The notes under the pieces were generated by a model. It saw nothing but the letters and a program-made list of their open reading frames with translations, had not been told where the DNA came from and searched no databases. The position numbers and the translations under genes were made by a program. DNA of 64,000 bases from NCBI GenBank assembly GCA_021776335.1, contig JAJFGB010000005.1, positions 1 to 64,000 on the forward strand. The letters are read 5' to 3'. Shown here in pieces: positions 1,837 to 18,511 of the stretch. Within the stretch, counting starts at the first letter, position 1, and every line of letters starts with the position of its first letter. This DNA is from Hyphococcus sp. (GTDB lineage: Bacteria > Pseudomonadota > Alphaproteobacteria > Caulobacterales > Parvularculaceae).

Positions 1837-2181
1837 ATGACGCTCAGACAACAGGCAGGGCTGCGGATCCGCGCGCTTCGAAAGGCGCGCGGTATGACCC
1901 AGGCTGATCTGGCGCTGCGCATCGATATGTCTGTTCAGATGGTCCAGCAAATCGAACGCGGCGCCACGGCGCCGGGCTTTGACACAATCGACGCCCTGTC
2001 GCGCGCCCTTGCGGCGCCGCCGGCGCTGATGTTTCCGGCGACACGCCCGGAAAAAACCCCGTCGGCGAAAGATGAGACCGTCTCGGCGATCACCGCGCGC
2101 GCTGCCGGTCTGACACAGGAAGACGCCGAAACCCTGCTCGCCCTCGCAGCGCATCTCGGCGGGCGCGGGCGCCGGCGGTGA
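1837..2181 (+). CDS. XRE-family helix-turn-helix protein
   Basis: Predicted 114-aa DNA-binding protein. Residues 5-62 form a Cro/C1-type helix-turn-helix (IRALRKARGMTQADLALRI, MVQQIERG, IDALSRAL). A Pro/Ala-rich linker and a short helical tail ending in a basic GGRGRRR run follow. ATG 1837 precedes the conserved domain directly; 26 residues of upstream open frame look non-coding. No close partner gene is adjacent, so the target is unknown. Similar short XRE proteins are common orphan regulators in alphaproteobacteria. Confidence 0.75.
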   Translation: MTLRQQAGLRIRALRKARGMTQADLALRIDMSVQMVQQIERGATAPGFDTIDALSRALAAPPALMFPATRPEKTPSAKDETVSAITARAAGLTQEDAETLLALAAHLGGRGRRR

Positions 2182-2758
2182 CGCGGGAATATCACGATTG
2201 ATACGCCCAGCTTTGCAGGAAGCTTAGATGCAGCGCGGGCGACTTGCCTGATCACTGATGGATCTGATTGCAGCAAGCGTGGTTTAAAGGCGTGAAGGTT
2301 TGATGCAGATCACGGCGCCCTGCGTGTCTGCTTTGTGCATTATATGTCGGAGGCGTGAGGTCGCGAAGCTGGTTGAGAGTTTGGATGCGGTTTTGCGACG
2401 AGTGGTAAAAAAACCGTAAGTGATCAATAAATCATCTTAGTCCGCTTTGGCGCAGGAGCGGGCATGTTGAGATGGGCGGGCCACGTCGCCTAAATCCTCG
2501 GAGCAGACGTAAGGCTGGCCAATGCAAATTACTTCGAGCGAAAAGAGTGGGCCTATCGGTAAGGTTATTTATTGGCGCGCCTTTTGAAGAACCAAAGAGA
2601 TGGACAAAGAGCCTTCGAGCCCTTTTGCAATCCTGACTAACTCTACTCGGACTGGATGCCGTAATTGTTTTTCATTCAACGCAATATTCTATGTTAGCTT
2701 CTAGCATTTTAATTTATATTAAGTCGTAGTGATTCTGCAACATATAAAGGCAATATTC
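2182..2758. other. Intergenic stretch without recognisable gene
   Basis: No convincing coding frame. The left part resembles the surrounding GC-rich genome, but from about 2390 the sequence becomes visibly AT-richer and stays so through most of the next 7 kb. I read this as the left edge of the accessory island. No tRNA, integrase or direct-repeat attachment site was seen. Confidence 0.5.
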
Positions 2759-2983
2759 ATGGAAGCCTATGCAAATAAAGGTGGCGACTCCAGTGTTGCC
2801 GCCTACGAAATTGGCAATGACGGTATCCGAGTGCGGTTTCAGGACGGTGCGGTGTATCTTTACAGCTATGGCAAGCCTGGATCACATCATGTTGAGCAAA
2901 TGAAGACGCTTGCACGAAATGGTGTGGGCCTCAATTCGTACATCAATAGAAATGTCAGAAAAGAATACGCTGCGCGAGAGTGA
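2759..2983 (+). CDS. Small KTSC-like protein
   Basis: Predicted 74-aa protein with a compact alpha/beta pattern: SSVAAYEIGNDGIRVRF, then DGAVYLYSYGKPG, a helix with HHVEQMKTLA, and LNSYINRNVRKEY. Order and spacing resemble KTSC-domain proteins, small folds often found alone or fused to nucleic-acid enzymes, but the diagnostic residues are only partly matched. ATG 2759 has an AAAGG ribosome site 8 nt upstream; a longer frame back to 2729 lacks one. Function unknown. It is isolated at the left end of the AT-rich island and may be cargo. Confidence 0.65.
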   Translation: MEAYANKGGDSSVAAYEIGNDGIRVRFQDGAVYLYSYGKPGSHHVEQMKTLARNGVGLNSYINRNVRKEYAARE

Positions 2984-3235
2984 TACTTGCGCAATAGAAT
3001 ATTCGAATAAATTAGTCGGCAAGAAAATTTCTCGACAGTGATAATAATAGAATGAATAATGATGAGCCGCTCCCAAATTCACCCTCACCGAAGACTAGGT
3101 TTTTCCGGCTTCGTCACGAAGGCGGGATGATTGCAGTAATTTTGTGCGGTTAATTCGCTCACCGAAATTCTTATTCGAGAGTCTCGACCGGTCGAAACCA
3201 TAGCTTGCGGATTTGAGCATCATCGCTCAAACAAT

Positions 3236-4132
3236 CTATCGTCTCCATCGAGCCTGCGATTTTTGATAACGCTGCTTCGCTGTGAGGTCAGCGTCAGCAT
3301 CATACATGTCCTCATCGGGTTGCAAAACCTTGAGCTGGATCATGGCGAATCCGTTGGACTGAAGAAGTATTTGTTCATACATGGCTGAGACTTGGCGACC
3401 ACCATATGTGTCGACCCAGTATTCCGAGTCGGTGGAGTCGGAGTCGCTTGCGTGACCGCGATCCCGATACGAGTGTAGCAGAGAGATTGCGGGGATGGGA
3501 TCACCGGTATTTAGAATGATCCAGGGAAATTGTATGTTCTTGTATGCGCGCACAAATTTACCGTCCCGTGCGATGATGATAGCAATAGTTTCTGGATTGT
3601 ATTCGACGAAAGCACGAGCCGCAGCTTCTTTGCTCACATCAAAATGCTGGTGGATTTCGAGGACAGTTGTGAGGGAAGCGTAGCGCTTAGCGTCAATGAG
3701 CTGTCGCAATTGCGGCGGTGGCATCAAAATCAAAGAGGCAAAACGATTTGCTTCGGCTTCCATTTTCTTGGAGCTGTTCTTACTCTTCACATCCCAACTG
3801 CGCATGCCAGCCCGATCACAGAGAAACTGGCCAGTCTTGGGTGGTTTGTGGAAGGGAATGAGAAAATGACAGAGCTCATGGCCAATAGTAAAGCGCCGTC
3901 GCTGTCGTGAGACGCCAGCTTTCACGAGGATTCCGCCGACGCTCCTCGTTTCATCCGTGACAAGCCCGCCCTCAAAACCCTCCGTGGTCAGCGTTTTGAT
4001 CTCGGCGATGTCGAGTTGCAGTGCGAGGTCTTCTATAGGCACCGGGATTTTCAAATTGGGTTCGGCTTTGAGGATTTTACCGACCAGACCTATCGGTGAA
4101 TAGGTTCCGTCAAGATCGAGCCGGGTGACCAC
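3236..4132 (-). CDS. ImmA/IrrE-family metallopeptidase, CapP-like CBASS regulator
   Basis: Predicted 298-aa zinc peptidase. The HExxH motif (HELCH, residues 85-89) is followed about 38 residues later by EAEANRFASLILMP (from about residue 125), the usual third ligand and specificity segment of ImmA/IrrE peptidases. Residues ~175-298 form a C-terminal sensor-like domain. The GTG start lies 2 nt after the stop of the XRE gene, so the two form one operon, divergent from the CBASS genes. Known CapH/CapP pairs have this arrangement: CapP cleaves the repressor CapH after sensing DNA damage or single-stranded DNA, releasing CBASS expression. That role here is inference from family and position. Confidence 0.85.
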   Translation of the reverse strand: MVTRLDLDGTYSPIGLVGKILKAEPNLKIPVPIEDLALQLDIAEIKTLTTEGFEGGLVTDETRSVGGILVKAGVSRQRRRFTIGHELCHFLIPFHKPPKTGQFLCDRAGMRSWDVKSKNSSKKMEAEANRFASLILMPPPQLRQLIDAKRYASLTTVLEIHQHFDVSKEAAARAFVEYNPETIAIIIARDGKFVRAYKNIQFPWIILNTGDPIPAISLLHSYRDRGHASDSDSTDSEYWVDTYGGRQVSAMYEQILLQSNGFAMIQLKVLQPDEDMYDADADLTAKQRYQKSQARWRR

Positions 4133-4134
4133 GA

Positions 4135-4467
4135 TTAACCCTTGGATGGTGTGGGACGAATCTTCAATCGTTCCATCATCAACTTTATGGTCTCGCGGTC
4201 TTCGGCTCTGAGCTTTTGAAGGTCGCGATAGAGCACTACCGATTCGGCAATTTGATCTTCGCTATCAGGATTTTCGCCTACCAATGACGCAATTGGTGCA
4301 TCCAGTTTAAAGGACAGTTTTTTGAGCACATCGAGAGATGGATTGGTTGCGCGGCCGGTTTCCAGATCCCAAATATGGGCTTTGGAGACACCGACCTCAT
4401 TGGCAAGCTTCTGTAATGAATAACCTTTTTTTATTCGATGCTTTTTCAAATTGACGGCAAATGGCAC
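4135..4467 (-). CDS. XRE-family repressor, CapH-like
   Basis: Predicted 110-aa repressor. An N-terminal Cro/C1 helix-turn-helix (VNLKKHRIKKGYSLQKLANE, then SKAHIWDLETG, residues ~5-65) is followed by a linker and a charged C-terminal helical segment (~75-105) suited to dimerisation. The GTG at 4467 is chosen because GGGAGG lies 6 nt upstream; the frame stays open to 4554, but that part overlaps the promoter. It is co-transcribed with the ImmA-like peptidase and divergent from capV. The paired palindromes at 4519-4530 and 4565-4590 are its likely operators. Cleavage by the peptidase is expected in the linker but cannot be seen. Confidence 0.83.
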   Translation of the reverse strand: MPFAVNLKKHRIKKGYSLQKLANEVGVSKAHIWDLETGRATNPSLDVLKKLSFKLDAPIASLVGENPDSEDQIAESVVLYRDLQKLRAEDRETIKLMMERLKIRPTPSKG

Positions 4468-4518
4468 GGTAATCCTCCCTAAATGCGTGGGTCGCCAGCA
4501 TCCCCATCGCTCTCCCCA

Positions 4519-4590
4519 TACGAATTCGTACCATGTCAGGTTGACAAACGGCAAGTCACCTCAATACAACCACGGTTGTACGAAACCGTA
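4519..4590. promoter_or_regulatory. Divergent CBASS/capH promoter with paired operators
   Basis: TTGACA (4541-4546) and TACAAC (4565-4570), 18 bp apart, form a plus-strand promoter for capV. The same spot read on the other strand gives TTGTCA with a weak -10 over 4518-4524 for capH. TACGaattCGTA (4519-4530) overlaps the capH -10. TACGaaacCGTA (4579-4590) overlaps the expected capV transcript start. A third palindrome, TACAACC-AC-GGTTGTA (4565-4580), covers the capV -10. The two TACG-N4-CGTA sites are 60 bp apart. This layout would let one repressor shut both directions. Sites are read directly; binding is inferred. Confidence 0.65.
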
Positions 4591-4600
4591 TGGGAATGTT

Positions 4601-5593
4601 ATGAGGCGGATTCTTTCGATTGATGGCGGTGGCATCCGCGGGACCTTTCCGGCGTCGTTCTTGGCAACGCTGGAGGACGATCTTGATCAGCCCATCGGCA
4701 ACTATTTCGACCTGATTGCCGGGACCTCGACTGGTGGCATCATCGCGATCGCGCTCGCCATGGGCATCCCGGCCAAGCGCATTCTGCAGCTTTACGAGGA
4801 GCTCGGGCCGAGCATTTTTGACCAGGAGAAAACCGGGGTCGCGGGCTGGCTTACGAGGATGCATCGCTACCTACGCTGGTTAGGCTGGGGGCCGAAGTAT
4901 TCAACCGACCGTTTAGCAGCTGCGCTTAATGATGTGCTGGGGGATAAGAGGATCGGCGATGCGCAAACCCGGTTGGTGATTCCGGCTTGGCATGGCCATT
5001 CCAAGAAAGTCTACATTTACAAGACTGCGCACCACGAGCGTCTGACGACAGATTACAAGGACCCGGCGATTGACGCTGCGCTCGCGACCGCCGCTGCGCC
5101 AACCTATTTCCGAGAGCATATCACGTCGAATGATGTCGGACTTGTTGACGGCGGTCTTTGGGCAAACAATCCGGCGGCCATCGCTGTCGCCGAAGCAATT
5201 GGCGTCCTCGGTTGGCCTGCGGATAAGTTGAACGTGTTGAGCGTGAGTTGTCTCGAAGATATTTTCGAGATGAAGGAAGCTTATAGTGCGCGGAGTATGG
5301 TCAGAAAGACGGCCGATTTCTTCATGGCGGGCCAGTCACATGGTTCTATGGGGCTTGCACATATTCTCACTGGTGATCCACACAGGCGCAAAGCGATCTG
5401 GCGGATCTGTCAACCCGTTCCCGACGGGTTTTTCAGTCTCGACAATACCGCGCGTATTGGCCGACTGAAAGACCGCGGGTTCACCGAGGCGCGGGAGCAG
5501 AAGCCGATCCTCAAGCCTCATTTTTTTAACGAGCCGGCGGAGGCTTTTGTCCCCGTCCATAAACTGGAAAGCCAAGTGAATGACCGCGAATGA
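4601..5593 (+). CDS. capV: Patatin-like phospholipase, CBASS effector CapV
   Basis: Predicted 330-aa patatin-fold lipase. The oxyanion motif GGGIRG (residues ~9-14), nucleophile elbow GTSTG (Ser43) and DGG (Asp183, followed by LWANNPA) complete the Ser-Asp dyad. In CBASS this enzyme is switched on by the cyclic nucleotide from the adjacent synthase and degrades membrane phospholipids, killing the infected cell before phage release. ATG 4601 sits directly before the conserved MRRILSIDGGG start; the upstream open frame overlaps the divergent promoter. The stop overlaps the CD-NTase start by 14 nt, so the pair is translationally coupled. Effector first and synthase second is a frequent order. 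Confidence 0.93.
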   Translation: MRRILSIDGGGIRGTFPASFLATLEDDLDQPIGNYFDLIAGTSTGGIIAIALAMGIPAKRILQLYEELGPSIFDQEKTGVAGWLTRMHRYLRWLGWGPKYSTDRLAAALNDVLGDKRIGDAQTRLVIPAWHGHSKKVYIYKTAHHERLTTDYKDPAIDAALATAAAPTYFREHITSNDVGLVDGGLWANNPAAIAVAEAIGVLGWPADKLNVLSVSCLEDIFEMKEAYSARSMVRKTADFFMAGQSHGSMGLAHILTGDPHRRKAIWRICQPVPDGFFSLDNTARIGRLKDRGFTEAREQKPILKPHFFNEPAEAFVPVHKLESQVNDRE

Positions 5594-6818
5594 CGCCCCC
5601 ACCCATGAGAGTGTGCTGCAAGCGCTCCACGCCGGTATCGATATGCCTGAAGAAATCTTTGAAGAGATCGTCGCGAAGTACGAGTCATTGAGTGCTTGGC
5701 TTGATCGAGATGCGTCCAACATCAAGCGATACCAACCCTTTATCGCGCCACAAGGATCGGTCCTTCTCGGTACTGCGAACCAGCCCATCAAAGCTAACGA
5801 AGAATATGATGTTGATCTCGTCTGTCGACTGAACGCTGCCAAGAATGAGCTGACACAGCGGGAGCTGAAGGCATCGGTGGGGCGAGAAATACTCTCCTAT
5901 GCGGCGTCACACGATATGGCGTACACGCCGGAGGACAAACGCCGTTGCTGGACACTGAAATACGCCGACGACCGGCGGTTCCATATGGATGTCCTGCCCT
6001 GCATTCCAGACGCGGACTGCTATAGGAAGCGACTTGTCGAAAGCGGCCACCAGTCCATCGCCGCCAACATCTCGGTAACCGGTCAGGCAATCGCAATCAC
6101 CGACAAAACGGACCCCAATTATGATCGGCTTACAGAAGAATGGCCAACTAGCAATCCGCTCGGATACGCGGAGTGGTTTCTGGAGCAGATGGCCGAGCGC
6201 TTGCTTGTCGAGAAGCGGAATTTGATGCGGCATACCACGATCTATGACAAAGTAGAGGATATTCCAAATCATAAAGTTAAAACGACGCTGCAAAAGGCGA
6301 TTCAACTCCTGAAGCGCCACCGAGATACTATGTTTGCGGAAAATCCTGAGCATAAACCGATTTCGATCATCATCAATACGTTGTCGGCGCTGGCGTATGA
6401 TGATGAAGACTCGTTGGTCGGCGCATTAACAGCGATTCTGAAAACCATGGATAAGTTCATTGAAAATCGCGCCGGTGTTGCATGGGTGGCCAATCCAGTA
6501 AATCCTGAGGAAAATTTTGCCGATAAGTGGGCGGAAGAGCGGGAAAAGGAGGCGCAATTTTACCGCTGGCTGACGTCGGTAAGGCGCGATTTCGGGAGTT
6601 ACTTGAACGGGTCATTCCCAGAAAATGTGCCCGCAGCGTTGCGCGATAGGCTCGGCAAGACTCTTGTTGAGAAAGTTGTCGACGAAATTCAACTTACCGA
6701 AATTTCTGCGCCCGCCGTCATTACTTCGGCTGCTGCACTGTCCCGCGCGGAAACCATGGTAGAACAGGTGCGCGAAAGCGGCACAGAGACAACGCCATGG
6801 TGCGCAAAAAGAGATTGA
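5580..6818 (+). CDS. CD-NTase cyclic oligonucleotide synthase of CBASS
   Basis: Predicted 412-aa nucleotidyltransferase. The polymerase-beta-like core shows G-S-x3-GT (GSVLLGT, residues 59-65), the metal pair DVD in EEYDVDLV (Asp77, Asp79) and a third acidic residue in FHMDVLP (Asp137). A helical C-terminal half completes the usual ~400-aa length. On sensing infection such enzymes make cyclic di- or trinucleotides that activate the effector; the product cannot be read from sequence, so I do not assign a clade. It overlaps capV upstream (14 nt) and the E2-like gene downstream (22 nt), so the three genes form one coupled operon. The C-terminus lacks a clear conserved conjugation tail but ends in a short flexible segment. 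Confidence 0.92.
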   Translation: MTANDAPTHESVLQALHAGIDMPEEIFEEIVAKYESLSAWLDRDASNIKRYQPFIAPQGSVLLGTANQPIKANEEYDVDLVCRLNAAKNELTQRELKASVGREILSYAASHDMAYTPEDKRRCWTLKYADDRRFHMDVLPCIPDADCYRKRLVESGHQSIAANISVTGQAIAITDKTDPNYDRLTEEWPTSNPLGYAEWFLEQMAERLLVEKRNLMRHTTIYDKVEDIPNHKVKTTLQKAIQLLKRHRDTMFAENPEHKPISIIINTLSALAYDDEDSLVGALTAILKTMDKFIENRAGVAWVANPVNPEENFADKWAEEREKEAQFYRWLTSVRRDFGSYLNGSFPENVPAALRDRLGKTLVEKVVDEIQLTEISAPAVITSAAALSRAETMVEQVRESGTETTPWCAKRD

Positions 6819-7513
6819 CAAAAGTCAATACACTGACAATAGCGGAGGTGGAGCGGGCTCTCTCGTTTACGCAGCCCGGCCTGGCTATCACCGAGGCGAG
6901 AGACGTGATCCTCGCCGAAGGCGTGTATATTGTGACTGACGGCCCCAATGGTATCGGTCCAATTGCCCGTTATGAAATCGGAATCATTTTTCCGAAGATC
7001 TATCCATCAGAAGAACCGAGTGTCTACGAAACCGCCGGCACGGTTGAGCGTGTTGCGGATCGACATATGTATCCGAGTGGTCGGTGCTGCACCTGCATCT
7101 GGGAAGAATGGCTCGCTAAGTCCATTGATACGTCAGTGGAGGCTTTTTGCGACGGGCCGTTACACAACTTCTTTTTGAGCCAATTTATGTTCGATAAAAC
7201 TAGGAAGTGGCCGTTTGGCGACCGATCTCATGGTGTTGATGGCGTTATCGAAGCTATCGGCGACTTACTAGGGGTGGGACCAGATGAAGACGCGGCGCGC
7301 CGATACATCGAGATTGTAGCCGCACGAGAGATAAAAGGCCATTGGGCCTGCCCATGTGGGTCAGGAAAACGGTTGCGTAACTGCCATAACGATTATGTAA
7401 GAGAGTTACGTGGTCGAGTTAAACACGAGCGCGCACAGAAACTTCTTGAGCGGCTGATTGAAACGAAACTTCAGGAGCGCGCTACTCCCATGGAATCATC
7501 TCAGCAGCCCTAA
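6797..7513 (+). CDS. E2-like ubiquitin-conjugating protein with C-terminal SEC-C motif
   Basis: Predicted 238-aa protein. Residues ~10-150 match the prokaryotic E2 pattern of CBASS: beta strands (YEIGIIFPKIYPSEEP), then HMYPSGRCCTCIWEEWL, where Cys97 or Cys98 is the likely catalytic residue. Residues 183-197 are a SEC-C zinc motif (CPCGSGKRLRNCH), and a basic helical tail follows. There is no E1 or JAB gene, so with CapV and the CD-NTase this fits a type II 'short' CBASS, in which an E2-like protein alone is thought to form a thioester or isopeptide with the CD-NTase and tune its activity. ATG 6797 overlaps the CD-NTase end by 22 nt. The SEC-C part may bind nucleic acid or protein; its role is unknown. 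Confidence 0.85.
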   Translation: MVRKKRLTKVNTLTIAEVERALSFTQPGLAITEARDVILAEGVYIVTDGPNGIGPIARYEIGIIFPKIYPSEEPSVYETAGTVERVADRHMYPSGRCCTCIWEEWLAKSIDTSVEAFCDGPLHNFFLSQFMFDKTRKWPFGDRSHGVDGVIEAIGDLLGVGPDEDAARRYIEIVAAREIKGHWACPCGSGKRLRNCHNDYVRELRGRVKHERAQKLLERLIETKLQERATPMESSQQP

Positions 7514-7530
7514 TTAAATGCAGCAGATCA

Positions 7531-7540
7531 CCCCCCCCCC
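7531..7540. repeat. C10 homopolymer
   Basis: Ten consecutive C residues sit between the E2-like stop codon (7513) and the stop of the gene-end remnant. It is non-coding in both directions. The tract is slippage-prone and its length may be unreliable in an assembly. Confidence 0.9.
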
Positions 7541-7542
7541 AA

Positions 7543-8160
7543 TCACTCCGCCTTCTGGTAATGCCGTCTCTCCGGCCGGGCCTTGATCGCCAGCTCCAGG
7601 GTTTTTTCATTCGCCTTTTCCGCTTCGCGGTAAAGCTGGTAATGGCCGGAGGCGAGCTGGGCCGGCCAGCCCATGGCTTTGTTTCCGACTTTACGCACGC
7701 CGTAATGGCCGGCGGCCTGGCGCGTAAAGAACGGATTGTTCAGATGCGGGCGCGCCAGCGCGCAAAGGTCTGCACGATCATCGCAGATGATCGTGTTGAT
7801 CTGTTCGGGCAGGGTGATGTCGCCCACCGCGATGGTCGGAACGCCAACCTGTTGCTTGACGAATTCCGCAAAAGGCGTTTGCCACATGCGCCCGAACACC
7901 GGCTTTTGCCATTTCACGGTTTCGCCCGATGATGTGTGGATGATGTCGACGTCCGCCGCTTTGAAACTCTCGACAATTAGTCTAGGATAGGCGAGGGACA
8001 AGCCTTCGTTGGCCCAGTCGCTTGACGACACACTCGCCGACATTGGCTTTTTCTCCGGCCATATGGTGCGTATCGATTTAGAACATTCGACCGGAACCGT
8101 GATGCGATAGTCAAGATCGCAGCCATGCTCATCGTCTTGTCTTTTCGTGAATGGCAACAA
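7543..8160 (-). pseudogene. Decayed duplicate 3' end of the aryl-CoA flavoprotein gene
   Basis: This frame encodes a near copy of the last ~180 residues of the protein at 9878-12235. Shared segments include TPFAEFVKQQVGVPTIAVGD, CALARPHLNNPFFTRQAAGH and RRHYQKAE. Over about 430 bp from the stop codon, roughly nine bases in ten match by eye. Further in, the match decays (SDWANEGLSLAYPRLIVESF against SDWADGGLTLDDLKAIATSF), then fades to traces such as DDEHGCDLDYRI against VDDYGGDVANRV. It has no FAD domain, no start of its own and no promoter, so it is a remnant. It points the same way as the intact gene and borders the two-gene module. Confidence 0.85.
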
Positions 8161-8179
8161 GAAGCTAAAGGAGAGAGCA

Positions 8180-8596
8180 ATGAGTGATCAAGCAATTTCT
8201 GTAGATTTCGTAACCGAGGAATCTTCTGCGCCCGAGTACGTCGCTAAAATCGAGAAGAGTGGAGGCAAACTCGAAAACGCTGTAACACCATACACCATCC
8301 CCCCTGATCTCTTAGATGACTATTCGGATGCGCAGTTTGAACCCATAATGCTGGTAGCTGCGTTTGTGGGAACTGGATTCCTCATTAAACAAATCTCTGA
8401 TGTGTGGTTGGATCACACGCGGTCTGGAGGTCAAGTTATCGACACCCGAGGCGATAAGATTGCTGTTCGGGTTGCGCCATATCTGAAGCGAGGAACCCTC
8501 GTTCTACAATCCAAGGACGAAGTGAAAGTATTTCAGCCAAAGGATCGAGATACGGCGTTGCCCCTGCTTGAAAAGATTATTCTTGCTCATGGGTAG
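8180..8596 (+). CDS. Unrecognised 138-aa protein, first gene of HESVHYWQ module
   Basis: I do not recognise this family. The N-terminal ~50 residues are acidic and flexible. A possible short amphipathic or hydrophobic helix follows (EPIMLVAAFVGTGFLIKQI, residues ~59-77), then a beta-rich part (IDTRGDKIAVRVAP, GTLVLQSKDEVKVFQ). Size and layout faintly recall small effector-associated adaptor proteins of bacterial conflict systems, but no diagnostic motif supports that. ATG 8180 has an AAAGGAGAG ribosome site, one of the strongest in the window. Its stop overlaps the next gene's ATG (ATGGGTAG), so the two are coupled. Base composition matches the AT-richer island rather than the flanks. Confidence 0.75.
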   Translation: MSDQAISVDFVTEESSAPEYVAKIEKSGGKLENAVTPYTIPPDLLDDYSDAQFEPIMLVAAFVGTGFLIKQISDVWLDHTRSGGQVIDTRGDKIAVRVAPYLKRGTLVLQSKDEVKVFQPKDRDTALPLLEKIILAHG

Positions 8597-9776
8597 CGCA
8601 TTCAGACCCATCTCGGCGCTTATCGAAGTCGAATTTCCGTGGCGCGAAGCGAATCCCAAGACTCTTCGGCATCCGGCGATCCATAGGCCACAAGAATCGC
8701 GCATCGTATTTCATGAATCCGTGCACTACTGGCAGCAGTTGGGACAGGGCTTTATGACCAAAATCGCCCAAGAGGATTGGATACGGTTGCTGCTTTTTGA
8801 GAAAAACAATGTGGTGGCGGACCCAGGACCGTATCGCATCGAATTCGCGAGGCAGCACGTTGTGTCGGATTTTTCGGCACATGACCTCTTGGAGTCACTT
8901 GCGCGCTTCTGGGATGTGCATGCAATTGGTCCCCACCGATTGCTTGAAATGGAGTTTATTGATCCGCGGCGGAGCTTCAGCGAGTTGTTCAAAGAGCAGT
9001 ATTTTGCCTTCAAGAAGAAAGGCTTGATTGTTCATCCTGAACATGGCGGGTATTCAGACTTGGCCTTTGACATGACGATGGATGCAGCTGCAGGCAGCTA
9101 CGCGAAGCCCTACCAGTATGTTCGAGAGCGATTCAACTCCGTGGTCACCGGTACGGTATTTCCCTTAGCTGGTTACTTTGCGCTGCAGACCAAAAAACCG
9201 ATCGACGTATTCTTGAAAATCATCGACACAGTCGTGCCAAACCTTGAACACCCTCCTAGAGGGCGAGCGATACATGACCTATGGAAAACCTACTATTCAC
9301 TGATCCGTGACCACACTTTGCGAATTGCTCATCAACTCAAGATCGGTGATCTCATACTTACGGCCGCGTTAATCAAAAAAGGTCCGCTTCAAGATCACCC
9401 TGTTTATCGATGGATTTTTATTGAGCTCGACCGGGCACGTCGAGCGCTGGAGGATACGCCCTTTGCGAGCGAACTGGCGCAAACTTTTGGCCACGTCCCG
9501 CATGGTTTGCGCGGTGTATTGGCAACCGACTTCTGCCTATCGTGCCCCGGAGACACTTCGAACCGGAGCTTTTTGGTGGAATGGCTAGCTCCACTGTGCG
9601 TGCTGTTTCCAAATGGAAAACGCTGGCTCTTGACAGAACTTCACCGACGCGAACTCGTGCCTAGGATCGATGATTTAGAACGGGAAGTGTCCGAGGATCG
9701 GCTTAAAGTTGCGGAAGACGCTATGAATGTCCAAGAAAGATGGCTGGCATTTCGCCGATCGGCTCGTGGTTACTAG
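8589..9776 (+). CDS. Putative HExxH metalloprotease-like protein (HESVHYWQ)
   Basis: Predicted 395-aa protein of unknown function. Its one recognisable signature is IVFHESVHYWQQLG (residues ~39-52), an HExxH zinc-binding helix of metallopeptidase type; no third ligand can be named with confidence. The remainder is mostly helical with many Trp, Arg and aromatic residues, and a CLSC pair in LATDFCLSCPGD. No signal peptide or clear membrane span is seen. ATG 8589 overlaps the previous gene's stop; a TTG at 8568 is possible but has no better ribosome site. Position beside CBASS, the island composition and flanking gene-end repeats suggest a defence or conflict role. That is inference only. Confidence 0.75.
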   Translation: MGSAFRPISALIEVEFPWREANPKTLRHPAIHRPQESRIVFHESVHYWQQLGQGFMTKIAQEDWIRLLLFEKNNVVADPGPYRIEFARQHVVSDFSAHDLLESLARFWDVHAIGPHRLLEMEFIDPRRSFSELFKEQYFAFKKKGLIVHPEHGGYSDLAFDMTMDAAAGSYAKPYQYVRERFNSVVTGTVFPLAGYFALQTKKPIDVFLKIIDTVVPNLEHPPRGRAIHDLWKTYYSLIRDHTLRIAHQLKIGDLILTAALIKKGPLQDHPVYRWIFIELDRARRALEDTPFASELAQTFGHVPHGLRGVLATDFCLSCPGDTSNRSFLVEWLAPLCVLFPNGKRWLLTELHRRELVPRIDDLEREVSEDRLKVAEDAMNVQERWLAFRRSARGY

Positions 9777-9877
9777 ATCATACTGGGTTTTCGGCATGAC
9801 CGCTCCCGGCTAAAGTGAAATACCCTGTTCAACCAGAAATCAGAGAAGTTTTTCAACACGATCGCCGTGCTATCCGT

Positions 9878-12235
9878 TCACTCAGCCTTCTGGTAATGCC
9901 GTCTGTTCGGCCGGGCCTTGATCGCCAGCTCCAGGGCTTTTTCATTCGCCTTTTCCGCTTCGCGATAAAGCTGGTAATGGCCGGAGGCGAGCTGGGCCGG
10001 CCAGCCCATTTGTTTGTTACCCGTTTTCCTGACGCCGTAATGGCCGGCGGCCTGGCGCGTAAAGAACGGATTGTTCAAATGCGGGCGCGCCAGCGCGCAT
10101 AAATCTGCGCGATCATCGCAGATGATCGTGTTGATCTGTTCGGGGAGGGTAATGTCGCCCACCGCGATGGTCGGAACGCCCACCTGTTGTTTGACGAATT
10201 CCGCGAAAGGCGTTTGCCACATGCGCCCGAAGACCGGCTTTTGCCATTTGACGGTTTCGCCCGACGATGTGTGGATGATGTCAACGCCTGCGTCTTTGAA
10301 ACTTGTCGCGATGGCTTTGAGGTCATCAAGGGTCAAACCGCCGTCGGCCCAGTCGCTTGACGAGAGACGCACGGACATGGGTTTGTCGCCGGGCCAGACG
10401 TCGCGCAGGGCGTTGAAAACTTCCAGCGGGAACTTCACGCGGTTGGCGACATCGCCGCCATAATCATCCACACGCTGATTGGTGAGGGGCGAGAGAAAAC
10501 TCGCCAGCAGATAACCATGGGCGCAATGGAGTTCGAGCATGTCAAAGCCCGCCGCGTCGCCCCGCTGTGCGGCGGCGACGAAACTGTCGCGCACGTCATC
10601 CATCCGGGCGCGGGTCATTTCAGCGGGCGTATCGGAGGCGCCGTCAATATAAGGAATGGGCGATGCTGAAATCAGCGGCCAGTTGCCGTCGTGCATGGGC
10701 ATGTCCATGCCGAATTCGGGCGCCTTGGTTGATCCCTTGCGGCCCGCGTGTCCCAGTTGCAGCGCGATCTTTGTTTCCGTCGTCTCGTGAATGAAATCGA
10801 CAATGCGTTTCCATTGGGCGGTCTGCGCGTCGTTCCACAATCCGGTGCAGCCGGTCGTGATCCGCGCATCGGGGGTGGGGCAGGTCATCTCGGTGACAAT
10901 CAGCCCGACGCCGCCCAGGGCCCGGGCGGTATAATGGGTGAAATGCCAGTCGGTGAGATCGCCGTTCTCGGCGCAATATTGCGCCATGGGCGCCATGACA
11001 ACGCGGTTGGCGACGGTCATGTCACGCAGGGTGAAAGGCGTGAACATCGGCGTCGGGCGATCCGCCGCGACATCGCGGCCGGTGCGGGTTTCATAGCGCG
11101 CGTAAAACTCGTCTTCCGCGGCTTTATGGAAGGCGGCGTCGCGCAGTTTCAGATTATCCCAGGTGACCGACTTGCCGCGCGACATGACGGAGAATGCGAA
11201 CGCGTAATGGTCTTTTTCCCAATGCACCGGCATGTTTTCAAACCAGCGTAACGAAACCTCGGCGTTATGCTGGGTGATTTCCACGGGCGTGCGGCGGGTC
11301 GTTTCATAGGTTTCAAAAACCCGCGGCAAATCCTTGCCGTGATCGATCACCGCATCGGAAAGCGCGATGGCGCATTCCATGGCCAGCTTGGTGCCGGAGC
11401 CGATTGACCAGTGGGCCGTCGCCTTGTTGTCGCCGATGAGCACCATGTTGTTATGGCTCCAGCGCTCGCAAATAATTTTCGGAAAGTTGCGCCACATGGA
11501 ACGATTGATCAAAAAGTCGTGGCCCTGAAGGTCGTCTTTGAAAACCCCTTCAAGATATGTTGCGGTTTCTTCTTCACTCATCCCCTCAAAACCACAGGCG
11601 GCCCAGCATTCCGGCGTCGTTTCAACAACCCAGGTCGAGTGGCCTTCTTCATATTGATAGGTGTGGGCGCAAAAATGCCCGTGTTCGGTCTCGCGGAAAA
11701 AGAACGTGAACGCGTCAAGGGGGCGGGTGGAACCGAGCCAGGTGAATTTATTGCGCTTTTCTTCGATTTTGACGCCGAATTCGTTTTCATATTTTTTGCG
11801 GAAGCCGCTATTGATGCCGTCGGCCAGCACAACGAGGTCGCTCGTCTGACATTTTTCTTCAAATGTCGCGTCGTCGATGTGACTGGAAAAATGCATGTTG
11901 ACGCCCACAGCAGTGCAACGGTCTTGCAGCATTTTTAATAAAGTCTTGCGGGAACAGCCGGCAAAACCATTGCCGCCGACAATGGTGCGATTGCCCTTGT
12001 GCTCGATCACAATGTCGGACCAATAGGCGAAATTGTCCTTGATCAGTTCATAGCTTTCAGGGTCAGCGGCGAGAAACTCGTCCAGCGTCTCATCGGAAAA
12101 AACAACGCCGAAGCCGAATGTGTCATCGGCACGGTTTTGTTCGTAAACATCAATCTCGCATTCTGGATTTCGCTTTTTGGTGAGCAGCGCGAAATAAAGC
12201 CCGCCGGGTCCGCCGCCAATGACTGAAATTTTCAT
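9878..12235 (-). CDS. Two-domain aryl-CoA monooxygenase/reductase flavoprotein
   Basis: Predicted 785-aa fusion. Residues 1-~390 are an FAD aromatic hydroxylase (IGGGPGGLYFALL at 5-17, then GFGVVFSDETL and VLIGDNKATAHWSIGSG). Residues ~395-785 are an Old Yellow Enzyme-type FMN barrel (FTPFTLRDMTVANRVVMAPM, LQLGHAGRKGS, HCAHGYLLASFLSPLTNQR). This architecture is that of 2-aminobenzoyl-CoA monooxygenase/reductase and salicylyl-CoA 5-hydroxylase, which dearomatise an aryl-CoA thioester in hybrid aerobic pathways. The substrate here is inferred from that family. It lies 142 bp downstream of the RidA gene, separated by a hairpin repeat, so it may end the same operon. Its 3' end is duplicated at 7543-8160. 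Confidence 0.9.
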   Translation of the reverse strand: MKISVIGGGPGGLYFALLTKKRNPECEIDVYEQNRADDTFGFGVVFSDETLDEFLAADPESYELIKDNFAYWSDIVIEHKGNRTIVGGNGFAGCSRKTLLKMLQDRCTAVGVNMHFSSHIDDATFEEKCQTSDLVVLADGINSGFRKKYENEFGVKIEEKRNKFTWLGSTRPLDAFTFFFRETEHGHFCAHTYQYEEGHSTWVVETTPECWAACGFEGMSEEETATYLEGVFKDDLQGHDFLINRSMWRNFPKIICERWSHNNMVLIGDNKATAHWSIGSGTKLAMECAIALSDAVIDHGKDLPRVFETYETTRRTPVEITQHNAEVSLRWFENMPVHWEKDHYAFAFSVMSRGKSVTWDNLKLRDAAFHKAAEDEFYARYETRTGRDVAADRPTPMFTPFTLRDMTVANRVVMAPMAQYCAENGDLTDWHFTHYTARALGGVGLIVTEMTCPTPDARITTGCTGLWNDAQTAQWKRIVDFIHETTETKIALQLGHAGRKGSTKAPEFGMDMPMHDGNWPLISASPIPYIDGASDTPAEMTRARMDDVRDSFVAAAQRGDAAGFDMLELHCAHGYLLASFLSPLTNQRVDDYGGDVANRVKFPLEVFNALRDVWPGDKPMSVRLSSSDWADGGLTLDDLKAIATSFKDAGVDIIHTSSGETVKWQKPVFGRMWQTPFAEFVKQQVGVPTIAVGDITLPEQINTIICDDRADLCALARPHLNNPFFTRQAAGHYGVRKTGNKQMGWPAQLASGHYQLYREAEKANEKALELAIKARPNRRHYQKAE

Positions 12236-12263
12236 TGTTCTTTCTTTCGCTTTAAATTCCGAT

Positions 12264-12357
12264 CTTCATCCTGAGGAGAAAAAATTTCTTCGTCCTTCGT
12301 GACACGCGTTTTTCAAGCGCGCCCTCAGGATGAAGAAATTTTTTCGTCACGAAGGAC
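12264..12357. repeat. Nested inverted repeat between ridA-like and flavoprotein genes
   Basis: Three arm pairs face each other: cttcatcctgagg with cctcaggatgaag, aaaaaatttcttc with gaagaaatttttt, and gtccttcgtgac with gtcacgaaggac. The segment can form a large compound hairpin. It belongs with the repeat at 1-113 and lies in the only sizeable gap of the catabolic operon, where it might attenuate or stabilise the transcript. Confidence 0.8.
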
Positions 12358-12377
12358 CGCCGCAACGCGCTGCAACA

Positions 12378-12773
12378 TCACTCCGCCACCACGGCCGTCG
12401 CTTCAATCTCCACTTTCGCCGCGTCTTCCATCAGCGCGGTCACCTGCACCACCGCCATGCAGGGAAAAACCTTGCCCAAAGTCTCGCGCCATGCGGCGCC
12501 GACCGCAGCGGCGTTATCGAGATATTCGCGCTTGTCGGTGACGTAACAGGTCATGCGCACGATATCGGTCGGCGCGGCGCCGCCTTCATTCAGGATGGCG
12601 ACAATGTTTTCGAGGGTCTGGCGGAACTGCGCGACAAATCCGTCGGGGAATTCTTCTTGTTCGTTCCAGCCGACAACGCCAGCGGTAAAAACCTGTCGCC
12701 CTTGGGCGGCAATGCCATTGGCGTAGCCTTTGGGGCGCGGCCAGCCTTCCGGTTGCAAAATCTGATGGCTCAT
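12378..12773 (-). CDS. RidA/YjgF-family protein
   Basis: Predicted 131-aa member of the Rid family, trimeric proteins that hydrolyse reactive enamine/imine intermediates. Family features include [18 protein letters not shown] near the N-terminus, [18 protein letters not shown], and [14 protein letters not shown]. The typical RidA catalytic arginine segment is not clearly conserved, so it is better placed in a RidA-like subgroup. Its ATG overlaps the acyl-CoA dehydrogenase stop by 4 nt. An enamine hydrolase suits a pathway that makes amino-cyclohexenone CoA intermediates from 2-aminobenzoyl-CoA, which supports that substrate over salicylyl-CoA, though only by inference. Confidence 0.85.
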
Positions 12774-13951
12774 TTCAGCGCCTCCGGTGGTCTGAAGTTT
12801 TGAAGGTGCTGGCGCGCGATGACGATTTTTTGAACTTCCGATGCGCCCTCATAAATCCGCAGCGCGCGAATTTCCCGGTAAAGCTCTTCGACCTTCACGC
12901 CTTTTTTAACGCCGAGCCCGCCAAACATCTGCACGGCTTTATCAATGACAAGCTGCGCCTGATCCGTCGCAAAAAGTTTCGCCATGGCCGCTTCGCGGGT
13001 GACGCGGGTTTTCTTCACGTCCTTGGTCCAGGCCGAGCGATAGACAAGAAGCGCGGCGGCGTCGATATCGAGCGCCATTTCCGCAAGGCTTGCCTGGGCC
13101 AGGGGCAAATCGGAAAGCGTCGCGCCGAACATCTTACGCGTCAGGGCGCGGGCGGTTGCGTCATCCAAAGCGCGGCGGGCAAAGCCCAGCGCCGCGGCGC
13201 CGACGGTGGTGCGGAAAATATCAAGGGTCGCGAGCGCGGCTTTAAAGCCCGCGCCTTCTTCGCCGACGATATTGCTCGCGGGGACGCGGCATTGCTCAAA
13301 TTTCAAGCGGCCCAGCGGGTGCGGCGCGATCACATCAATGCGTTCCGTGACGGAAAAGCCCGGCGTGTCAGCGTCAACAACAACAGCGGTGACACCCGCC
13401 GGTGAGCGCGCGAACAGCGTATAAAAATCCGCAATGCCGCCATTTGAAATCCAGGTCTTTTCGCCGTCGATCACATAGCCGCCGCCATCATGCTGCATGG
13501 CGGTGGAGAGCGCGGCGGCGTCAGAGCCCGCATCTTCTTCGGAAAGCGCGAACGCCGCGATCTTTTCGCCGGTGGCGACCGCAGGCAGATATTTTTGCTT
13601 GATCGCATCGGAGGCAAAAAGGCTGATCGCGCCGGAGCCAAGGCCCTGCATCGCGAAACAAAAATCAGCAAGGCCCGAATGGCGCGCGAGGGTCTCGCGG
13701 ATGATCGCAAGTGAGCGCACATCAAGGTCATCATGGACGCCGCCATAGGCGGCCGGAACGCAGTAATGCAGCCAGCCGCCATCGCCTAAAGCTTTCACAA
13801 GGGCGCGGCAGGTTCCGTCGAGATCTTTATGGGCGTCTTCGCCCTCGGTAATCGCGGGGAGGGTTGCCGCCGCCCAGGCGTCAAGAGCGATCGCGAGCTC
13901 TTTATGATGGGGCTCAAAAAACGGCCAGTCGAGAAAGGTGCGGTCTGTCAT
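12770..13951 (-). CDS. Acyl-CoA dehydrogenase
   Basis: Predicted 393-aa FAD enzyme of the acyl-CoA dehydrogenase fold, full length. It shows the FAD/substrate signature [15 protein letters not shown], the second signature (ISNGG with KTWIS), the helical C-terminal domain with QMFGGLGV, and [15 protein letters not shown] near the C-terminus, the usual end of the active-site region. It would introduce a double bond alpha-beta to the thioester of a ring or ring-cleavage intermediate. The ATG abuts the enoyl-CoA hydratase stop with no gap, and its own stop overlaps the RidA start. It belongs to the MarR-controlled operon. Confidence 0.92.
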
Positions 13952-14761
13952 TTAATCGCCCTCGAATTTTGGTTTTTCCTTGGCGACAAAGGCGTTGTAA
14001 GCGCGCTCGAAATCCTTTGTCTGCATACAGATCGCCTGCGCCTGGGCTTCGGCCTCTATTGCCGTATCAAGGCTCATATCCCATTCCATATTCAACTGGT
14101 TCTTGGTGACGCCATTGGCAAAGCTCGGGCCGGCGGCGAGCTTTGTCGCCATTTTCATGGCGTGGTCGTCAAGTTGCGCCGCATCCACGATCTGGTTGAA
14201 ATAGCCCCAGTTAAAACCTTCTTCTGCGGAAAAGCTGCGCCCAAAGAAAAGAAGCTCGCTGGCGCGGCCCTGGCCGATAATGCGCGGCAGCATTGCGCAA
14301 GCGCCCATGTCGCAGCCGGCAAGACCGACGCGATTGAAAAGAAATGCGGTTTTAGCCTCTGGCGTGGCGTAACGAATGTCCGACGCCATGGAGATGATCG
14401 CGCCGGCGCCGACGCTGACCCCGTCAATGGCGGCGATGATCGGCTGCGGACAGCCGCGCATGGCTTTGACGAGATCGCCGGTCATGCGGGTAAAATCGAG
14501 AAGTTCCGGCATGCCCATTTTCGTGAGCGGCCCGATAATGTCGTGAACATCGCCGCCGGAACAAAAATTGCCGCCATTGGAACCAAAGATGACCGCCTTT
14601 ACCTCTTTGGCGTAGACAAGATCGCGAAAGAGATTGCGCAGCTCCGCATATGAATCGAAGGTCAGCGGGTTTTTGCGCTCCGGGCGGCTCAGTGTAATCC
14701 GCGCCACGCCATTGTCGAATTGCCAGTTGAAATGTTGCGGCTTGAAGCTTTTCGGGTTCAT
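13952..14761 (-). CDS. Enoyl-CoA hydratase/isomerase family protein
   Basis: Predicted 269-aa crotonase-fold enzyme. The N-terminal strand motif [19 protein letters not shown], the first oxyanion segment ([17 protein letters not shown]) and the second ([20 protein letters not shown]) are intact. A catalytic glutamate of the hydratase type is not evident in the expected helix, so isomerase or ring-hydrolase activity is possible. In aryl-CoA pathways such enzymes hydrate or open the dearomatised ring. Its start overlaps the MarR stop by 4 nt and its stop touches the acyl-CoA dehydrogenase start. Confidence 0.88.
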
Positions 14762-15222
14762 GCTGCGTCCTTTCGCGTCTGTCCGCCGGTTTGCGACAGG
14801 TTGAGTTTGCCCATTAGTTTTTGAATGGTAGCGAGTTCGGGTTTTGACAGGCCGGCAAAGACATCAGCAATCCACGCCTGATGTTCTGCTGCCATTTTCG
14901 CAAACAGCTTTTCGCCTTTTTTCGTGAGGCTGAAAATCGCGACGCGCGCGTCTTCGCGGTCGGTTTTGCGTTTCACCAATCCGTCGCGGATCAAGGGCGC
15001 TGTCACTTGCGTTGTGTTGCCGTCGGTCACCATCAGCTTTTGCGACAGGGCCCCGGCGCGCAGGCCTTCGGGCCCGGCGCGATCGAGGGCGGACAAAACA
15101 TCAAAGCGGGAAATAGAAAGACCAAATTGCGACCTGAATTCCGTATCGGTGAATTTCTTGATGGCGTTTGAGGCGCGCAACAGCTCCAGCCAGGTGCGTA
15201 AAGCGTCGCGGGTTTCACTCAT
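14758..15222 (-). CDS. MarR-family transcriptional regulator
   Basis: Predicted 154-aa winged-helix dimer. Helices [15 protein letters not shown] and [14 protein letters not shown] lead to the recognition region ([22 protein letters not shown]) and the wing ([23 protein letters not shown]). It sits second in the operon, overlapping both neighbours by 4 nt, so its level tracks the operon. MarR proteins in aryl-CoA catabolic clusters commonly repress until the aromatic acyl-CoA binds. The near-identical sites at 15978-15994 and 16021-16037 upstream of the first gene are its probable operators. Confidence 0.9.
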
Positions 15223-15968
15223 GACGCGGTCTCCCCGCCGTCAATGATGATCGACTGACCATTCACGGATGCGGCGCCGTCGCTCGCGAGCCACAAAGCG
15301 GCGCTCGCGACTTCTTCCGGCGTCACAAGCCGTCCCATGGGATTGTCTTTAACAAAGGCGGCGAGTGCGTCTTCGCGGCTCATTTTTGTTTTCGCGACAA
15401 TATTGTCGATAGCGTCATCGATCAGCGGCGTATCGGTAAAGCCCGGACAGATTGCGTTGACGGTAATACCGGTTTTCGCCAGTTCCAGCGCCAGACTTTT
15501 CACCCATCCCAAGACGCCATGTTTTGCAGCCGCATAGGCGCCGGTAAAAGGATAGGCCTTGAGCGACGCGGTCGACGCAATGGCGATGAACCGGCCCCAG
15601 CCGCGGGTCCGCATGGACGGCAGACTTTCGCGCGCACAAAGATAAGCGCTCGTCAAATTGACGGCGATCATCTGATCCCACATCTCGCGTCTGGTTTTAA
15701 GCGCCGGCGCCGTCGCCGCCGCGCCGGCATTGGCGACAAAAATATCAATCACGCCCGCGGCTTTGACGCCGTCGATGACCGATTGTTCGTCGGTGACATC
15801 CATTTCCACAAAAGGAAAACCGGATTTTTCAAGGCGCGCCGCATTTCGGCCCGCAATGGTTACCTCATGGCCGGCGGCGGAGAGTTCCCGCGCAATCGCG
15901 AGGCCGATGCCCGAGCCGCCGCCTGTAATAAAGGCGCGGCGCGGCGATGAGGGCGAGGGAGCGTTCAT
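15219..15968 (-). CDS. SDR-family 3-hydroxyacyl-CoA dehydrogenase-type oxidoreductase
   Basis: Predicted 249-aa short-chain dehydrogenase. The NAD(P) motif TGGGSGIGLA is at residues ~15-24, FVANAGAA follows near 85-92, the serine is in AIASTAS and the catalytic YAAAK motif is present; the C-terminus SVNGQSIIIDGG is typical. It probably oxidises a hydroxyacyl-CoA of the aryl-CoA pathway. It is the first gene of the operon. Its ATG (15966-15968) lies only about 8 nt from the inferred -10 (15976-15981), so the message may be leaderless or nearly so. Confidence 0.9.
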   Translation of the reverse strand: MNAPSPSSPRRAFITGGGSGIGLAIARELSAAGHEVTIAGRNAARLEKSGFPFVEMDVTDEQSVIDGVKAAGVIDIFVANAGAAATAPALKTRREMWDQMIAVNLTSAYLCARESLPSMRTRGWGRFIAIASTASLKAYPFTGAYAAAKHGVLGWVKSLALELAKTGITVNAICPGFTDTPLIDDAIDNIVAKTKMSREDALAAFVKDNPMGRLVTPEEVASAALWLASDGAASVNGQSIIIDGGETAS

Positions 15969-15975
15969 AGATAAT

Positions 15976-16037
15976 AGTTTAGCATTAAAATAAATTGCGT
16001 CAACGCTTTCAAAAATTTATTTTAGGATTAAAATAAA
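15976..16037 (-). promoter_or_regulatory. Promoter and twin MarR operator candidates
   Basis: TTTAGcATTAAAATAAA (15978-15994) and TTTAGgATTAAAATAAA (16021-16037) match at 16 of 17 positions, 43 bp apart (about four helical turns). Each contains an AT-rich dyad TTTA-N4-TAAA. On the minus strand a promoter TTGACG (15998-16003), 16-bp spacer, TAAACT (15976-15981) is covered by the first site, as expected for MarR repression. Confidence 0.65.
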
Positions 16038-16099
16038 GTGAATTTCGTTGGTTTTCTTGAGTTTTTAGTTGGGGGAGAGGGTGACATTTTGCAGTAGCT

Positions 16100-16276
16100 G
16101 TCATCCCGGGGGCGGCGTAGCCGAAACCCGGGATCCATGGCGCCGCCTTTTCGCTGGAACAAGATTGGCGACGGAGCACCATGGATCCCGGATCAGCAGT
16201 GCAGCACTGCGTGCCGCAATGCATCCGGGATGACGCTTGAGTATGTGGTGCGGCGTGTCCTTTCTCGTCATCCCGG
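16100..16276. repeat. Dispersed 'gtcatcccgg' palindromic repeats
   Basis: gtcatcccggg at 16100 pairs with the inverted cccgggatgac-type sequence near 16222-16234. Inside, cccgggatccatgg and ccatggatcccgg form an inner inverted pair. Another gtcatcccgg starts at 16267. These are typical non-coding alphaproteobacterial repeat modules. Confidence 0.75.
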
Positions 16277-16412
16277 ACGCGCTGCGGCATCTTTGATGAC
16301 GCTGCGCAGGTTGATCGAACTCGATCAACGGGACCCACGCGCGATGCGAAACAGAGTTGGCCGCGCCGCCAAACGCGCGGTAGATTGATTAAATGAGCCG
16401 GGGAGAAAACCG

Positions 16413-18485
16413 ATGAGTGTAAAAATCGAAAACAAAGACGGCGTGTTGGTCATCACGATCGATAATCCGCCGGTAAATGCCCTCGGGATTGCGGTTCGGT
16501 CTGGATTGGCGACAGCGCTCGATCAGATCGACAGTGATGAAACCATCAAAGCGGCCGTGATCACTGGCGCCGGTAAAATCTTTATCGGCGGCGCTGACAT
16601 CAAGGAGTTCGGTAAGCCGCCGCAAGAACCGCATCTGCCTGACTTGCTCTCACGACTGGAACAGACACGTGTGCCGACTGTCGCGGCGATCAATGGCGCG
16701 GCCCTTGGCGGCGGCCTCGAGACGGCGCTTTCCTGTCGTTATCGTGTGGCGTCCACCAATGCATCTGTTGGTCTGCCGGAAGTAAAGCTCGGTATTATTC
16801 CCGGCGCCGGCGGCACGCAACGTCTGCCGCGTCTGGCGGGGATGAAATGCGCGGCCGAAATGATCAGCAGCGGCAAACCGAAAAAAGCAACCGAGGCCCA
16901 TGCGCTCGGCATTATCGATCAGATCATCGAGGGCGATTTAGTCGAGGGCGCATTGGCCTTTGCGCGGTCCTTGTCCGCAGACAAATTACGCCCGCCGTTG
17001 TGCAATATCGAAAAGCCTGCGGATTGGGACAGCGCATGGCTTGACGGGTTCGAAGAAAAAACCCGCAAGCGCGCGCGCGGACAATTATCGCCATTGAAAG
17101 CGATCGAAGCGGTGCGCGCCGCCGGCACCATGCCCTTCGCAGACGGGCTCGCGAAGGAGCGGGAGATTTTTCAGACCTGCATGAAAAGCGAACAACGCAA
17201 AGGCTTGATCCATGCGTTTTTCGGCGAGCGGCAGGTTGGGAAAATACCGGCGCTGGAGGGCGTTGCGCCGCGCGCCGTCGAAGAAATCGCGGTGCTGGGC
17301 GCCGGCACCATGGGCGCAGGCATTGCGATCGCCTGTGCGCAGGGCGGCTATCGCGTCAAACTGTTTGATACAAATGCCGATGCGCTGGCTGCCGGTGTGA
17401 AACGGGTCGATCAAAATTTCACCGCAGCCGTCGCCAAAGGGCGCATGAGCGAAAAGGCGGCAGCAGAAGCTGCCGGTCGCGTCGCGCCCATATCGACGCT
17501 GCAAGCCACAAGTGATGCTGACCTCATCATTGAAGCGATTGTCGAGCGCATGGATGTGAAGCAAGCGGTCTTCAAAGAGCTTGATGAGATCGCCAAACCC
17601 GGCGCGGTGCTGGCGTCCAATACATCTTACCTCAACATTGACGAGATCGCTGCGGCGACGTCGCGCCCGCAGGACGTGATAGGGATGCATTTCTTCAGCC
17701 CTGCCAATGTCATGCGCCTTCTTGAGGTTATTAAAACCAACAAAGGCGCCCCCGATGCGCTGGCGACGGCTTTTGCCGTGGGTAAAAAGATCGGTAAAAT
17801 CTCTGTGCTTGCCGCGATCGGCGACGGGTTTATCGGCAATCGCATCTATAAAGCCTATCGTCGGCAGGCGGACTATCTTCTCGAAGACGGCGCCCTGCCG
17901 CAGGATGTTGACCGCGTCATGAAGGGCTTCGGCTTTGCTATGGGACCCTTTGCCGTATCGGACCTCACCGGGCTCGATATTGGTTGGCACACGCGGCGGC
18001 GCGAAGATGCGACACGCGATCCTGATGAGCGCTATGTGGATATCGGCGACCGGCTTTATGAGGCGGGCCGCCTCGGTCAGAAGTCCGGCTCGGGCTATTA
18101 CAGATATGAAGACGGCGCCCATACCGGATCAATTGATCCCGATGTTGAAAAAATCATTCTTGAAGCCTCCAAAGCCAAAGGCATTACGCGCCGCGCGATT
18201 GATGATGCGGAAATTCTCGATCGCATTCTTTTTGCGATGATCAATGAAGGCGCCAAGGTGCTTGAGGAAGAAGTTGCTGCACGGGCCATTGATATCGATA
18301 TGGTGTTTTTGCAGGGCTACGGGTTTCCGGCCTATCGCGGCGGGCCGATGTTTTACGCCGACACTATCGGCCTCGATACGGTGTTCGATGGGGTCAGACG
18401 TTTTGAAAAGACCGATAGCGCTGCATGGCGCTCGTCAGACTTGCTGTTAAAGCTCGTGCAAGAGGGAAGATCATTTTACAGTTAG
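16413..18485 (+). CDS. FadB/FadJ-like enoyl-CoA hydratase/3-hydroxyacyl-CoA dehydrogenase
   Basis: Predicted 690-aa bifunctional beta-oxidation enzyme. Residues 1-~190 are a crotonase domain (ITGAGKIFIGGADIKEFG; INGAALGGGLETALSCRYR; LPEVKLGIIPGAGGTQRLPR). Residues ~290-480 are the NAD-binding 3-hydroxyacyl-CoA dehydrogenase (VLGAGTMGAGIAIACAQGG; NTSYLNIDEIA; GMHFFSPANVMRLLEVI), and two C-terminal dimerisation repeats follow (~485-680). It would hydrate and oxidise the acyl-CoA released by the neighbouring ring-degrading enzymes. It is divergent from the MarR operon with GGGGAG before ATG 16413. No thiolase gene is adjacent in this window. Confidence 0.93.
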   Translation: MSVKIENKDGVLVITIDNPPVNALGIAVRSGLATALDQIDSDETIKAAVITGAGKIFIGGADIKEFGKPPQEPHLPDLLSRLEQTRVPTVAAINGAALGGGLETALSCRYRVASTNASVGLPEVKLGIIPGAGGTQRLPRLAGMKCAAEMISSGKPKKATEAHALGIIDQIIEGDLVEGALAFARSLSADKLRPPLCNIEKPADWDSAWLDGFEEKTRKRARGQLSPLKAIEAVRAAGTMPFADGLAKEREIFQTCMKSEQRKGLIHAFFGERQVGKIPALEGVAPRAVEEIAVLGAGTMGAGIAIACAQGGYRVKLFDTNADALAAGVKRVDQNFTAAVAKGRMSEKAAAEAAGRVAPISTLQATSDADLIIEAIVERMDVKQAVFKELDEIAKPGAVLASNTSYLNIDEIAAATSRPQDVIGMHFFSPANVMRLLEVIKTNKGAPDALATAFAVGKKIGKISVLAAIGDGFIGNRIYKAYRRQADYLLEDGALPQDVDRVMKGFGFAMGPFAVSDLTGLDIGWHTRRREDATRDPDERYVDIGDRLYEAGRLGQKSGSGYYRYEDGAHTGSIDPDVEKIILEASKAKGITRRAIDDAEILDRILFAMINEGAKVLEEEVAARAIDIDMVFLQGYGFPAYRGGPMFYADTIGLDTVFDGVRRFEKTDSAAWRSSDLLLKLVQEGRSFYS

Positions 18486-18511
18486 GCGCTTGCTGTGACA
18501 TGCGAAAATCG

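Follow-up and report, generated by a model that had tools for sequence, protein, structure and literature searches.

A rare overlapping gene pair encoding a putative helical HExxH peptidase, a plausible defence module beside CBASS in Hyphococcus sp.

The 64,000-nucleotide stretch of Hyphococcus sp. DNA analysed here (contig JAJFGB010000005.1 of assembly GCA_021776335.1, positions 1 to 64,000; hereafter the window) carries, next to a cyclic-oligonucleotide-based antiphage signalling system (CBASS), a pair of forward-strand genes that is plausibly a new defence module, the role in defence being suggested by position. Gene A (8180..8596) encodes a protein of 138 amino acids, and gene B (8589..9776) one of 395 amino acids, modelled as almost all-helical and carrying an HExxH motif. 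An earlier note made from the sequence had proposed that a strong ribosome site and a start-stop overlap couple the two genes, and both are indeed present: the ribosome site of gene A and its ATG (AAAGGAGAGAGCAATG) lie at 8167..8182 (+), and the stop of A overlaps the start of B by 8 bases (ATGGGTAG, 8589..8596, +). The two protein lengths and the HESVHYWQ motif of B (8712-8735) given in that note were confirmed as well; both genes are real, as is their pairing. A mechanical list of open reading frames (ORFs) has longer versions starting at GTG or TTG (149 amino acids for A, 402 for B); we prefer the ATG starts because homologues of both A and B begin at these ATGs. A promoter of the pair's own is unsupported, since a consensus scan around A-B gave 2 promoter-like sites versus 2.1 in shuffles. 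A conserved C-terminal HG had made A a candidate ubiquitin-like protein, which we rejected as the overlap accounts for these residues: in the window, the start codon of B lies inside CAT GGG TAG. Many A proteins end in HG or RG, probably because the start codon of B constrains this end of the gene, as judged for the relatives from their proteins.

HESVHYWQ (8712..8735, +) corresponds to the HExxH motif of zinc peptidases, a label that the earlier note had not given it. H42, E43, W48 and Q49 are found in all 39 B sequences compared and H46 in 38 of them, as is, in 39/39, E102 (8892..8894, +), a candidate third metal ligand. The conserved association of HExxH with a downstream acidic residue, one criterion for zincin-like metallopeptidases, is thereby found in the B family. 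The structure model of B is of high confidence and almost all-helical, and B is likely a metal-dependent peptidase. In one homologue, P0002, 79% identical to the B of the window, the second motif histidine at residue 46 is replaced by asparagine, which may reflect a sequencing error or an inactive copy. No Pfam family matches B at E ≤1, and B lacks matches in PHROGs and to the M78 and capP families; its single match in NCBIfam is sub-threshold (E 0.078), and when 35 B homologues were compared with Pfam the top match was isolated (Glyoxalase, one protein, E 0.0035). A Foldseek search of viral structure models found nothing. The B family is absent from the libraries searched, and likely represents a zinc-dependent protease of an undescribed family.

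The AlphaFold2 (AF2) model of A is of the alpha+beta type, ferredoxin-like at residues 2-96, with a hydrophobic stretch (residues 51-69) that is modelled as a strand and a helix. No match for A was found in Pfam (E 1), PADLOC, NCBIfam or PHROGs, and the best matches of 28 A homologues in Pfam are isolated (RF-1 in three proteins, top E 0.0041). A is a plausible regulator of B. Among known anti-phage models (PADLOC 2.0.0), no family was found for A or B (E 0.1), nor for a cyanobacterial pair described below (E 0.01). The statement that neither gene belongs to a named system is therefore upheld, these searches, the Pfam scans of the 28 A and 35 B proteins included, having given no named family for either. 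The A-B pair is likewise unnamed in the titles or abstracts of the literature found.

Twelve contig sizes, that of the window included, are common to the lists of A and B matches, contigs being paired by size and not by name. The pair also recurs in the cyanobacterium Aphanothece saxicola (locus L002), where a homologue of A (27% identity) ends 3 bases before a homologue of B (32%), and in P0067 an A-like N-terminus is followed, after unrelated residues, by B in one protein. Both genes and their order are conserved, and they are inherited together: distances among A proteins correlate with those among B proteins (r 0.94 over 12 pairs, none of 10,000 permutations as high), the set being made up of the Aphanothece pair and all contig-matched pairs but the truncated one of P0062 (11 out of 12). 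The correlation stays at r 0.81 without the cyanobacterium (5/10,000 permutations as high); shared host descent is also compatible with it. Sixteen A and 23 B matches are unpaired, of which 4 and 18 lie on contigs of at least 2 kb. For these 18 (of 35 B matches), on contigs without a size-matched A, the absence of A cannot be deduced because the A search scored 43 candidates. The expectation that the two genes co-occur elsewhere was thus borne out as repeated co-occurrence, and not as strict co-occurrence.

The pair is rare but real, and occurs in unrelated bacteria. A search of 5.8 billion proteins yielded 35 members of the B family and 28 of the A family, those of the window included, and a profile search with B returned 38 proteins, 7 of them new, among 7,999 candidates scored. 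That the genes are more than a chance occurrence is borne out by their relatives: those of B are 27-79% identical to the protein of the window, those of A 44-76%, apart from the more distant cyanobacterial A already mentioned. Among whole genomes, B was found in 1 of 149 relatives and 1 of 385 members of the class, and A in 1 of 398 members of the phylum, each time in the genome of the window itself; similarly, the only match among 292 genomes of the Aphanothece phylum is the Aphanothece genome already known. No relative of the pair was found in plasmids (probed with B, with P0065, a relative of B from Streptomyces, with the cyanobacterial A and with the A of the window), in phages probed with B, in viral contigs by pattern search, or in E. 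coli genomes, where near DNA matches only were sought. A first scan of genome contigs for relatives of the pair returned none, and a second scan one locus.

The pair lies between duplicated ends of a flavin mononucleotide/flavin adenine dinucleotide (FMN/FAD) oxidoreductase gene. The full-length gene (9878..12235, -) borders the pair on the right with its 3' end, and a diverged copy of this 3' end (7543..8061, -) lies to the left; positions 7543-8061 and 9878-10396 match in 460 of 522 alignment columns (88%), and the homology runs exactly to the stop codon. The duplicated gene ends claimed for the locus are thereby confirmed. We noticed no recombinase gene in the A-B insert, which has space for little beyond A and B. 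Further left, PADLOC identifies the CBASS neighbour, with a patatin effector, a CD-NTase and an E2 protein (4604..7513, +), preceded by capP (an M78 peptidase) and capH (a helix-turn-helix, HTH, protein) on the opposite strand (3236..4554, -), all with strong scores. The description of the region as an AT-richer island stands only in part: its GC content (52.2% at 2,001-10,000) is below that of both flanks (60.9% at 1-2,000 and 58.0% at 10,001-22,000), but it is not AT-rich relative to the whole window. We rejected AT-richness as proof of an island, as GC is also low at 22,001-64,000 (53.2%).

The same gene end carries cargo in a congeneric genome, G017. There the oxidoreductase gene is followed by three shorter copies of its 3' end (L040:4835-5065, 5867-6010, 7517-7627), with protein identities of 70, 83 and 78%. 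A HEPN-nucleotidyltransferase gene stands between the oxidoreductase gene and the last of these copies, together with a 341-aa gene and a 258-aa ORF that have no family match at E 0.01, and beyond the last copy comes a restriction-modification system composed of a C5-methylase, Vsr and an EcoRII-C endonuclease. No extra 3'-end copy was found in the 7.0-15.0 kb stretches of 14 other relatives, one of which (L048) has a piece of a paralogue (30% identical); by eye, mostly metabolic genes come next to the gene end in these relatives. The gene end therefore holds cargo in 2 of the 16 loci compared. The 3' end of the oxidoreductase gene looks like a hotspot, where blocks of cargo are followed by partial copies of that same 3' end, and it could guide the search for further cargo of this sort in relatives. 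With the duplicated gene ends, the CBASS alongside and the other defence cargo of the congeneric genome, the view of A-B as mobile defence cargo is well supported.

We propose, with about an even chance of being right, that A-B is a rare, horizontally moving module in which A gates a helical HExxH peptidase and whose most likely role is defence. In such a system, H42 and H46 of B would bind the metal, with E102 probably as third ligand, and E43 would serve as general base. A, a small alpha+beta partner that would be made in step with B through the gene overlap, would bind B and hold or switch its activity. Either A or its complex with B might sense infection; B, then active, would cleave a protein of the host or the phage, and the infection would halt. 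If this holds true, bacterial immunity would gain a new family of proteases, in a small and readily moved two-gene system with clear residues for testing. At the Aphanothece locus, the sole other neighbourhood seen, no convincing defence gene was found, the 6 neighbours tested having no PADLOC match. Directly upstream of the cyanobacterial pair lies a gene combining an HTH, a GHKL ATPase and a STAS-like DUF4325 domain (L002:8359-9393), which may be regulatory or adjacent by chance; for this GHKL-ATPase gene the PADLOC match is weak (E 0.0069).

The small gene placed first and the larger, overlapping gene second would also suit an addiction pair, in which an antitoxin A restrains a toxic protease B and the pair persists through the killing of cells that lose it. 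The mobile cargo setting and the rarity of the pair are in line with such selfish maintenance, which is itself compatible with defence. Yet B, with its 395 residues, is large compared to classical toxins, and no toxin or antitoxin match was found in Pfam, PADLOC or NCBIfam, so that we regard this explanation as unlikely. It seems about as unlikely that B is an ordinary processing enzyme, maturing or degrading one host protein or peptide with A as its chaperone or substrate, at a site that collects any cargo. The cyanobacterial pair does adjoin genes such as that of a valyl-tRNA synthetase (by eye), with no convincing defence matches among the neighbours tested, and in G017 two of the ORFs interspersed with the gene-end copies have no family match (E 0.01). 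Nevertheless, a housekeeping role is a poor fit because the pair is so rare (1/149 relatives, 1/385 of the class, 1/292 of the Aphanothece phylum).

The organisation of A-B, a presumed sensor followed by a protease, would resemble that of the EACC1-caspase pairs. According to Kaur et al. (2020; PMC7159879), an EACC1 gene lies 5' of a caspase gene, and EACC1 has one membrane helix between alpha+beta ends. A likewise has a hydrophobic stretch between alpha+beta ends and precedes a peptidase gene. An EACC1-like probe (133 bits against PF19953) gave 15 plasmid matches, of which 13 were fetched and assigned through that probe; a caspase-family gene is listed downstream in 8 of these 13 loci. In contrast, neither A (E 1) nor its 28 homologues match PF19953, B has no caspase or cyclase domain (no Pfam family at E ≤1), and a third of the A proteins are too weakly hydrophobic for a clear membrane helix: their Kyte-Doolittle maxima span 1.13-2.03 (at least 1.6 in 19/29, below in 10/29), versus 1.65-2.00 in 13/13 EACC1 proteins. 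Alignment of A with EACC1 by hhalign gave a probability of 2% (P 0.023 local, P 0.37 global). With the A profile, one EACC1 protein (L009) scored above all 2,000 shuffles (E 0.13); when the EACC1 profile was used, six shuffles outranked the top-scoring A protein. Homology of A to EACC1 was thus not established by hhalign or the two-way profile searches, and the likeness is organisational. In Pseudomonadota, EACC1 was found in 0 of 60 genomes of the order, whereas the phylum gave 4 matches among 398, each of them under the cut-off; the one locus opened (L005), in a neighbourhood resembling rnc-era-recO by eye, looks like a chance match. We consider it possible, if somewhat doubtful, that A-B is an undescribed immune module present in at least two bacterial phyla, with a small, sensor-like A controlling an all-helical HExxH peptidase where EACC1 systems have a caspase. 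A distant EACC1-type conflict system, in which A would be a diverged form of the membrane-associated EACC1 component and B would replace the caspase, is very unlikely: gene order, similar size, the similarly placed stretch where the local hhalign alignment falls, and L009 speak for it, but the low hhalign probability, the failed reverse search, the lower hydrophobicity of A, its strand and helix in the AF2 model and the missing caspase speak against it.

A second structural look at B had DUF2342/Zincin_2 (PF10103, structure 3cmn) in its first row, which likewise has HExxH and then a conserved glutamate in a later stretch, but 77 residues separate the last motif histidine from that glutamate in 3cmn, compared with 56 in B. 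PF10103 does not match B (E 1) and is not among the families listed for the 35 homologues, no Zincin_2 was found in 10 records, and homology to DUF2342 was not established (hhalign versus 7 members, P 0.26). We know of no A-like partner of DUF2342. Lit of E. coli is an HExxH protease that cuts EF-Tu upon T4 infection; B, without a Pfam match at E ≤1, would be comparable to it by functional analogy alone, as a phage-triggered protease. The capP gene of the neighbouring CBASS is also of metallopeptidase type and lies within the same island, but B matches neither M78 nor capP.

Three minor observations concern the left part of the window. The E2-like protein of the CBASS (6797-7513) scores 20.5 bits, against a cut-off of 20.4, for a SEC-C motif at its residues 185-197, and a small ORF on the margin of the CBASS island (2729-2983) has a sub-threshold KTSC match. 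Two imperfect palindromes, each matching its own reverse complement, lie at 1-112 and 1582-1653, near methyltransferase and MerR-like genes.
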